A stretch of 13,198 nt of DNA from a bacterium (GTDB taxonomy: Bacteria > Actinomycetota > Humimicrobiia > Humimicrobiales > Humimicrobiaceae): NCBI GenBank assembly GCA_030611285.1, contig JAUWQC010000014.1, positions 1 to 13,198 of the forward strand, in the 5' to 3' direction. Below, one piece after another: positions 369 to 951 of the stretch. Numbering within the stretch: position 1 is the stretch's first letter; every line of letters begins with the position of its first letter. The notes beneath the pieces are model-generated. The model worked only from the letters and a program-made list of their open reading frames with translations, did not search any database and had not been told where the DNA came from. The translations under genes were made by a program, and so were the position numbers.

Positions 369-445
369 AGGGCTGTAGCTCCAATTGGTAGAGCACCGGT
401 CTCCAAAACCGGGTGTTGTGGGTTCGAATCCCTCCAGCCCTGCCA
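369..445 (+). tRNA. trpT: tRNA-Trp (anticodon CCA)
   Basis: A full cloverleaf can be drawn by hand. The acceptor is AGGGCTG (369-375) with CAGCCCT (435-441). The D stem is GCTC (378-381) with GAGC (391-394). The anticodon stem is CCGGT (396-400) with ACCGG (408-412), around loop CTCCAAA with anticodon CCA at 403-405. A 5-base variable loop follows. The T arm is GTGGG (418-422), loop TTCGAAT, CCCTC (430-434). The discriminator is G442 and CCA 443-445 is encoded. The T stem has one U·U opposition (T419/T433), the only flaw. It is probably co-transcribed with rpmG upstream and secE downstream. Its last 21 bases plus one flanking A are repeated exactly at 589-610. Confidence 0.97.
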
Positions 446-446
446 A
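425..446 (+). repeat. Direct repeat, copy 1 (tRNA-Trp 3' end)
   Basis: This 22-base stretch runs from the T loop through the encoded CCA of tRNA-Trp plus one A. It is identical to 589-610. The bases just before differ (TT here, AC in copy 2), which marks the left edge. It is the functional copy because it completes the tRNA. This is the usual form of an attachment site in a tRNA gene, where site-specific elements integrate into the 3' half and restore it. Confidence 0.9.
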
Positions 447-490
447 GTCTATATGAGTAGAACATTGAGTACGGTAGAGGTAGTTTGGGG

Positions 491-511
491 AAACATGCCA
501 GTGGCATGTTT
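491..511 (+). repeat. Perfect 9-bp hairpin inside the insert
   Basis: AAACATGCC (491-499), loop AGT, GGCATGTTT (503-511). No T run follows on either strand, so it does not look like an intrinsic terminator. It could be an RNA-processing hairpin between the tRNA and secE, or a structural part of the inserted element. Confidence 0.8.
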
Positions 512-513
512 GC

Positions 514-596
514 GGGATTCGAAAAGACGGACTGAGTCGAAGACGAGGGAGTCCGCGGCTCTGCAGCGAGCAAAGCGAGACGGAAGACCGAATCCC
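514..596 (+). repeat. Inverted repeat mimicking the tRNA T arm
   Basis: GGGATTCG (514-521) is the reverse complement of CGAATCCC (589-596), the tRNA-derived right end of the insert. It encloses 67 bases that can form further stems: CGGACT/AGTCCG, and GCTC (558-561) with GAGC (568-571). The pairing puts one copy of T-arm sequence antisense to another, so the right half of the insert could fold as one long hairpin. Confidence 0.6.
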
Positions 597-610
597 TCCA
601 GCCCTGCCAA
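589..610 (+). repeat. Direct repeat, copy 2 (displaced tRNA-Trp tail)
   Basis: An exact 22-base duplicate of 425-446, without the 5' half of a tRNA before it. It carries its own CCA (607-609). If the insert arrived by integration, this is the original host tail pushed downstream. The A-rich leader of secE follows. Confidence 0.9.
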
Positions 611-639: not shown

Positions 640-951
640 ATGGCTAAAAGGAAAGTTTCAAGAAAGTATAGGAAAAAAGCGATAGTAGAAAGGCAGATGC
701 AGGAAAGAAAGCTCCCATCACAACCAAGGAAGAAAATAAATTGGAAGCAATTTATAAAAAAACTGCCTTCGAGAATTGGAAAATTTTGCAGGGATGTTAT
801 ACATGAGTTAAAAAGAGTAACCTGGCCTACCAGAAAAGCGCTTTTAAATTATACTATAGTAGTTATAGTTACTATTATTATTTTTGCGGTTATCCTGGGA
901 GTTTTTGATTTTGGCTTCTTACGAATAGTGGAACTGATGACAAAAATTTAA
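640..951 (+). CDS. secE: Preprotein translocase subunit SecE
   Basis: SecE is the essential small membrane subunit of the SecYEG protein-export channel in the cytoplasmic membrane. The ATG at 640 has AGAGGA (625-630) 9 bases upstream. The 103-residue protein has a basic N-terminal tail (residues 1-45, many K/R), then the diagnostic motif HELKRVTWPTRKAL (about 55-68), which lies at the membrane surface and contacts SecY. One membrane helix follows (about 70-93, rich in I and V). This single-helix form with an extended basic tail is usual outside gamma-proteobacteria. It is separated from nusG by only 16 bases, the classic secE-nusG pair. The tRNA-tail insert sits immediately upstream, in its leader. 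Confidence 0.95.
   Translation: MAKRKVSRKYRKKAIVERQMQERKLPSQPRKKINWKQFIKKLPSRIGKFCRDVIHELKRVTWPTRKALLNYTIVVIVTIIIFAVILGVFDFGFLRIVELMTKI

Follow-up and report, generated by a model that had tools for sequence, protein, structure and literature searches.

A short, gene-free unit lying directly behind the tRNA-Trp gene belongs to a multi-copy family of the Humimicrobiaceae. Each unit consists of a spacer, a hairpin, an 8-nt arm, a structured core and a copy of positions 56–76 of the host tRNA, and the arm is complementary to host positions 56–63. Closely related units occur behind different tRNA genes, each carrying its own host's tail. With somewhat better than even confidence, the unit is regarded here as a tRNA-tail element of the rtT-like kind, non-autonomous and spreading among tRNA genes whose tails resemble one another. 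The window, that is, the whole stretch of DNA analysed (13,198 nucleotides), contains the following features at this locus:

369..445, plus strand: host gene, tRNA-Trp (anticodon CCA), called by ARAGORN and scoring 61.4 bits with the Rfam tRNA model
425..445, plus strand: first tail copy, tRNA positions C56–A76, part of the functional tRNA (repeat comparison)
446..490, plus strand: AU-rich spacer of the unit, following the locus more than the genome in the family comparison
491..511, plus strand: hairpin H (AAACATGCC-AGT-GGCATGTTT), from RNA and DNA folds
514..521, plus strand: arm GGGATTCG, complementary to host tail positions 56–63 (helix P1) and covarying with the host
525..554, plus strand: core helix P2 with its inner hairpin, from mutual information and pair counts
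558..588, plus strand: core helix P3, in which G558 pairs with C588, the unit's last base, adjoining the tail
512..598, plus strand: match to covariance model R1 over arm, core and tail start (107.1 bits), one of the eight R1 training sequences
589..609, plus strand: second tail copy, C56–A76, the 3' end of the unit, an exact repeat; 610 is a one-base extension
640..951, plus strand: secE-like ORF with the unit in its leader, named from position and translation

The insert behind tRNA-Trp and its relatives

The sequence-only reading of this locus had reported an exact 22-bp repeat of the tRNA-Trp 3' end, 164 bases downstream, and this is confirmed: bases 425–446 recur at 589–610 with a start-to-start distance of 164. 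Its interior length of 143 nt is also correct, but the placement at 447–588 is not, since the insert between the tail copies occupies 446–588. The segment is structured, as had been claimed. None of 200 dinucleotide shuffles folds as well as bases 447–610, whether folded as RNA (z −3.5) or as DNA (z −4.1). Good folds are also obtained for the opposite strand (RNA z −3.6; DNA z −3.3, with one of 200 shuffles equally good), and therefore the strand is not named by folding alone. The outermost P2 pair of the window unit is an A–C mismatch, and a hairpin resembling H stands at the equivalent place in the family rows listed. The longest ORF starting within the insert has 57 amino acids, while minus-strand ORFs of 89 and 156 amino acids merely cross it; in agreement with the earlier judgement, the ORF list shows no integrase gene within the window element, which is too short for one. 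The identical arrangement is found at the same site in another MAG (G006), with 93% identity over 561 query bases, which makes the misassembly that had been considered unlikely.

The window's genome holds eight copies of the unit in total, according to blastn with bases 425–610 and to a covariance model. The blastn search of this genome returned seven further places plus one 23-base fragment. Six of these copies lie behind tRNA-Arg(TCT), Pro(TGG), Lys, Asp, Leu(CAG) and tmRNA, and the seventh is an orphan with no tRNA in its stretch. Counting Trp, seven units are tRNA-linked; six of them carry an exact copy of their own host's tail at the end, and the Pro copy is damaged. Copies at other tRNA genes of the same genome, each with the matching tail, are what had been proposed as support for mobility.

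The covariance model R1 was built from these eight copies, and its search of the same genome at E≤1 returns the same eight. Among 149 relatives, R1 matches 24 genomes, all of them within the window's family (24/35 in the family, 0/114 outside). A broader model, R2, gave 150 matches in 24 of the 35 family genomes; in a phylum sample it matched 23/34 family genomes and 0/362 others, under stricter filters and with 11 candidates scored per genome, so that weak relatives outside the family may be missed. A 21-base core pattern was found in 84 stretches (80 listed) of a collection of 84,980 species genomes and had no exact match in viral contigs. Among the matches listed are Actinomycetota MAGs, including Ca. 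Humimicrobium oleiphilum and Ca. Hydromicrobium americanum; Ca. Humimicrobium is assigned to Ca. Humimicrobiaceae by NCBI.

From 107 stretches of relatives, 148 hits were located (132 + 16). After removal of 22 without an upstream tRNA in the stretch and two short ones, 124 units were assigned to hosts comprising 23 isoacceptors and tmRNA. Two of these 24 host types, Ala(cgc) and Asn, rest on one unit each: in the Ala(cgc) unit, the tRNA end given by ARAGORN appears to be a few bases off, and in the Asn unit the tail copy is decayed. Among the 22 hits lacking a tRNA, 13 have less than 150 nt of room. Contig starts are close by in two further cases (L139, L131); in L114 the tRNA is covered by Ns, and in L086 a group II intron cuts the unit off. 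Four are orphan units with no tRNA to explain them (L007, L074, L062, L112). The orphans in L007 (G000:C218) and L074 (G006:C133) have similar upstream flanks, far from any tRNA, and their ends differ. In the remaining one, L073 (G006:C80), a unit carries a tmRNA tail with no adjacent tmRNA, and a neighbouring frame resembles a tyrosine integrase by eye; this neighbourhood suggests an island in ssrA.

Group II introns were encountered at a few places. In L278 (G011:C126) and L086 (636–707), an intron with its reverse-transcriptase gene lies within the arm of a tRNA-downstream unit, and the tail of the interrupted unit is the tRNA-Pro(cgg) tail of G020. In L282 (G004:C52, 1650–2360), a group II intron lies near, and on the same strand as, the RNase P RNA gene.

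Rfam 15 contains no known RNA family for the window unit and six further loci. Within window bases 1–1400, the gathering score was reached by tRNA only, and the sole weak match of the unit itself (548–593) is to the L2-Alphaproteobacteria leader, with 14.7 bits against 37.8. The Rfam intron models have no match over the units themselves in the window and six loci, the single group II match (L086, 636–707) being a separate intron inserted in a unit. A search that covered mainly the open-access literature found no description of this Humimicrobiaceae tRNA-tail family.

Host-matched tails, arms and core

The tail of the unit is an exact copy of host C56–A76 (21 nt) in 98 of 124 units and has at most four mismatches in 112. 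When the element-bearing tRNAs of the same genome were compared, the host was the strictly best tail match in 113/121 tests. This identity stops at the CCA: in the 55 units without a further unit behind them, positions +1, +2 and +3 match in 55%, 44% and 27%.

The arm starts 60–77 nt past the CCA in 109/124 units, the remainder being mostly second or third units of arrays. It is perfectly complementary to positions 56–63 of its own host over 8 nt in 91/124 cases, compared with 77/643 for the other element-bearing tRNAs of the same genome; over the first 7 nt, the figures are 111/124 and 152/643. Watson–Crick pairing with the host reaches 95–98% at positions 56–62, 80% at 63 and 25% at 64. At the variable positions 57 and 59, pairing with other tRNAs of the same genome is about 50%. 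In 16 discordant units the tail copy and the tRNA differ within 56–63. The arm fits the tRNA perfectly in six of them (G002 Trp, G021 Arg, G028 Ser, G014 Asn, G029 Pro and G000 Pro) and the copy in one, in which the tRNA end appears to have been misplaced by ARAGORN; the other discordant units have at least one arm–tRNA mismatch. The host-copied tail and the arm pairing with it therefore point to one repeat that has spread to many tRNA genes, matching each.

The core forms a three-way junction with 23 pairs, 15 of which show two-sided changes. In the final structure, 94.6% of cells are paired. Cells with two-sided changes number 374, versus 137.8 in shuffles, a value reached by 0/500; none of the 500 shuffles attains any of five structure measures. 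A mutual-information scan of 132 matches, in which no pairs were presumed, recovered P1 (arm–tail), P2, P3 and the pair that joins the unit's last base to a base of the core, with rows aligned to R1 and hence a bias towards R1 pairs, P1 above all, the last pair being unmodelled in R1. This alignment (A4) comprises 132 of the 148 hits, and the 16 left out include those of the window's genome. The pair involving the last base, readable in 139/148 hits, is GC or TA in 124/139 and paired in 95.0%.

P3 tips are GNA triloops in 82/127 and GNRA tetraloops in 2/127 cases and P2 tips are more mixed (GNA 40/123, GNRA 8/123), as assigned by a loop caller slightly biased to short loops. GNA triloops closed by C–G favour single-stranded DNA; the folding-energy parameter sets used carry no bonus for them. 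A second form of P3 has TACGTGAG for CTCTGCAG. In the Lys units of G000, G002 and G005 (L003, L048, L067), the spacers are near-identical and the tips of P2 and P3 wholly different. The cores of several genomes look as if they had been converted within genomes.

Turnover, spread and candidate partner enzymes

Sites vary among genomes: they are filled, empty, tandemly repeated or scarred. At the trpT–secE site, nusG was located in 29/35 family genomes and the tRNA was readable in 22, where 10 sites are filled (one of them decayed), 11 are empty and run into the secE leader, and one (G018) bears an apparent 17-nt scar of the unit start. Relatives with an empty site at this locus had been named beforehand as the comparison to make. 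Tandem arrays also occur, with another unit, by the criterion applied, behind 35 of the 90 first units that have enough sequence. In L159 (G003:C148, 1–100), a unit has apparently been deleted between the hairpin ATGCCA and the tail TGCCA, leaving its 5' half. The empty sites could be clean losses via the 21-nt direct repeat. With both the direct repeat and empty sites present, homology-driven copying would look alike to target-site duplication.

Near-identical units occur with differing host tails. The Arg(acg) and Ser(gga) units of G029 are 96% identical in the spacer and 95% in the core, while their host tails differ at 7/21 positions and the sole difference within the 8-nt arm is at the base matching the host change. 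The units of G002 Leu(tag) and G004 Glu(ctc) agree in 96% of the core, and six positions of their tails differ outside the stretch covered by the arm. A unit that has moved therefore bears the tail of its new host. Among 109 first units, the nearest spacer belongs to another tRNA in another genome in 56 cases, to the same tRNA in another genome in 44 and to another tRNA in the same genome in 8; for cores, the respective numbers are 52, 15 and 33, and the rest are ties (8 of them, for cores, with the same genome). Spacers thus go more with the locus, cores more with the genome.

Relatedness between units was also compared with the similarity of host tails. In genus g1, it correlates with similarity at 56–63 (r 0.35, 0/300 permutations) and at 64–76 (r 0.30, 3/300). 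Over all genera the correlation is weak (r 0.15 for 56–63, 6/300; r 0.14 for 64–76, 3/300), and it was undetected in g9 (76/300) and g13 (187/300). The arm is not singled out by this analysis, because 64–76 correlates almost as well as 56–63.

Three enzyme families were searched over the 35 family genomes, and no consistent partner was found among RVT_1 (12/35), Y1_Tnp (14/35) and IS110 (16/35). RVT_1 at E≤0.001 is present in 12/24 element-bearing and 0/11 element-free genomes, an association with a two-sided Fisher value of 0.0055, uncorrected, with RVT_1 being one of the three families tested. Of the 12 genomes, 11 exceed the curated cut-off and G013 falls below it. Y1 (10/24 vs 4/11) and IS110 (12/24 vs 4/11) show no association. 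Reverse transcriptase, Y1 and IS110 are absent from 12, 14 and 12 of the 24 element-bearing genomes, respectively, and the window's genome is one of the 12 without RVT_1.

Known systems and competing explanations

The closest likeness is to the rtT repeats of the E. coli tyrT operon. In E. coli K-12, three units with a spacing of 178 stand behind tyrV, each ending in tail positions 58–76 (19 nt) and containing GGGGAAGGAT, complementary to ATCCTTCCCC of the tRNA-Tyr tail. The Rfam RtT model (RF00391) matches these three units and one between tyrT and tyrV. RtT-like units with 18–19 nt of the tRNA-Arg tail were also found in argVYZQ of K-12, behind argV, argZ and argQ. The arm of the argV unit (GGGAGGAT) fits the Arg tail, and those of argZ and argQ are imperfect; the three units score 31.0, 29.2 and 22.8 bits with the RtT model, below its 45-bit cut-off. 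These argVYZQ units (L290, 5652–6450) are without annotation in the record. In the other four of the five K-12 tRNA loci read besides that of tyrT and tyrV, including the one with tyrU (the third tRNA-Tyr), no such unit is seen. In passages of PMC4986893, RtT family RNAs adjoin Asn and Lys tRNA genes in Actinobacillus and many E. coli tRNA operons are mentioned, and a passage of PMC2965389 links rtT-like sequences to BIME repeats. E. coli rtT is described as a by-product of tRNA operons with a possible stringent-response role (passages of PMC2965389, PMC4986893).

Both families have a unit directly 3' of the tRNA that ends in its tail, the RtT-type trait that is exact here over the 21 nt of those 98 of 124 units. 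They also share an arm complementary to the tail copy, a GC-rich hairpin core and tandem arrays. No source is known to us that uses arm–tail complementarity as a criterion for RtT. However, P1 pairs positions 59–68 in E. coli and 56–63 in Humimicrobiaceae, and the hosts number 24, including tmRNA, in the latter, as opposed to two (Tyr and Arg(ACG)) in the six K-12 loci read. RF00391 has no match in window bases 1–1400 at E≤5, nor in L001, L007, L062, L074, L086, L112 and L140 at E≤0.5; R1 did not find E. coli rtT (best 6 bits). A search of phages gave no match to the rtT unit of E. coli. With a shared anatomy and no mutual model match, the family is therefore rtT-like in anatomy and not a member by sequence.

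Other mobile systems resemble the unit in part. Islands and phages integrated into tRNA genes by tyrosine recombinases, with att in the tRNA 3' end, also duplicate this end at their distal border. In contrast, the unit has 143 nt without an integrase, and related units carry their own host's tail on both sides. Bacterial MITEs and REP elements are likewise short, structured, multi-copy and gene-free, whereas the unit is tied to tRNA or tmRNA 3' ends save for four orphans, with arm and tail following the host. No inverted pair of at least 12 nt, as terminal inverted repeats might give, was found at the insert ends, and the three families tested yielded no transposase partner, which leaves the proposed MITE-like nature doubtful. 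In IS200/IS605 elements, the guide stands on the 5' side of a hairpin and pairs with the junction on its 3' side, in a manner comparable to the arm and tail. These guides have about 4 nt and are not known to involve a target duplication, and, unlike in that system, Y1 transposases have no association here. In sum, the proposal of a small mobile element holds for the most part, and the idea of a scar left by a larger element is unsupported. The mobile-element interpretation, partly supported as it stands, had lacked the host-covarying 8-nt arm, the three-way-junction core and the likeness to E. coli rtT.

According to the preferred reading, that of a spreading rtT-like element, the unit would be transcribed together with its tRNA, forming a structured RNA trailer that ends in CCA. 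The arm–tail pairing would close the fold and may keep the duplicate tail from invading the real tRNA. More tentatively, the unit might move through annealing of a copy to a tRNA gene whose tail is similar. A strand transfer at the T-arm (56–63) and a return at the CCA, as by template switching or a trans-acting enzyme, would then leave the new host's tail on both sides. The copying mechanism proper is a guess, to which rather less than even credence is given. Against this reading, no mobilising gene was found among the three families searched, and some of the units are inherited at fixed sites, as indicated by the nearest spacers that stand behind the same tRNA in another genome (44/109). The missing correlation in g9 and g13, the four orphans and the possibility that empty sites are clean losses also count against it.

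This vertical signal in the spacers speaks for a rival explanation, a host-useful trailer RNA of the rtT type, acting in tRNA processing, in the stringent response or as a sponge, whose copies are inherited, homogenised by gene conversion and not selfish. The strongly conserved structure, the core types common within genomes (nearest core in the same genome in 33/109, plus the 8 ties) and the role described for rtT also fit such an RNA. This explanation is considered somewhat unlikely, with no unit in 11/35 family genomes and with the turnover of sites, the decayed copies, the scar and the tandem arrays speaking against it. Less likely again is an insertion programmed by the arm as a guide, in which the arm, acting either as RNA or as single-stranded DNA, base-pairs with the T-arm strand and directs a nuclease, transposase or reverse transcriptase, a 21-bp target duplication results and arm mutations retarget the unit. 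An arm match limited to 8 nt and beginning at the insertion junction, an arm that still fits the tRNA in several units with a decayed tail copy, and the host tail on both sides are consistent with it. However, the three enzyme families provide no partner, the correlation at 64–76 nearly equals that at 56–63, and a 21-bp duplication is long for a transposase.

A reverse transcriptase, of a group II intron or another kind, could also mobilise the unit in a SINE-like manner. The restriction of RVT_1 to element-bearing genomes and the group II intron in the arm of one unit would agree with this. Nevertheless, half of the element-bearing genomes have no RVT_1, several different Rfam group II models match the introns found, a unit occurs at only one of the eight reverse-transcriptase loci looked at (of 15 matches), and genome incompleteness and a shared mobile load can yield such an association; this origin is quite improbable. 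The old partial tandem duplication that had been suggested, or a misassembly at one locus, is permitted if the single locus is viewed alone. It was rejected as extremely improbable in view of the 150 matches, with mostly host-matched tails, and of the same site in other MAGs. A bolder form of the guided insertion, held to be about as unlikely as that explanation itself, is a gene-free 143-nt element inserted by nucleic-acid guidance, with the 8-nt arm choosing the tRNA or tmRNA gene and arm changes retargeting it. The same principle would have arisen again, or be anciently shared, in E. coli rtT, and the active form may be single-stranded DNA.

Large islands classically land at tRNA 3' ends; in Humimicrobiaceae, a gene-free unit exploits them over 23 isoacceptors and tmRNA, with a pairing element that tracks each host. 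The multi-host family reveals a covariation that a single-host view could not show, and the long-known E. coli tyrT repeats are thereby recast as one case of a kind also found in a distant phylum. The host-tracking arm makes a specific mechanism testable, namely whether the arm chooses the target.
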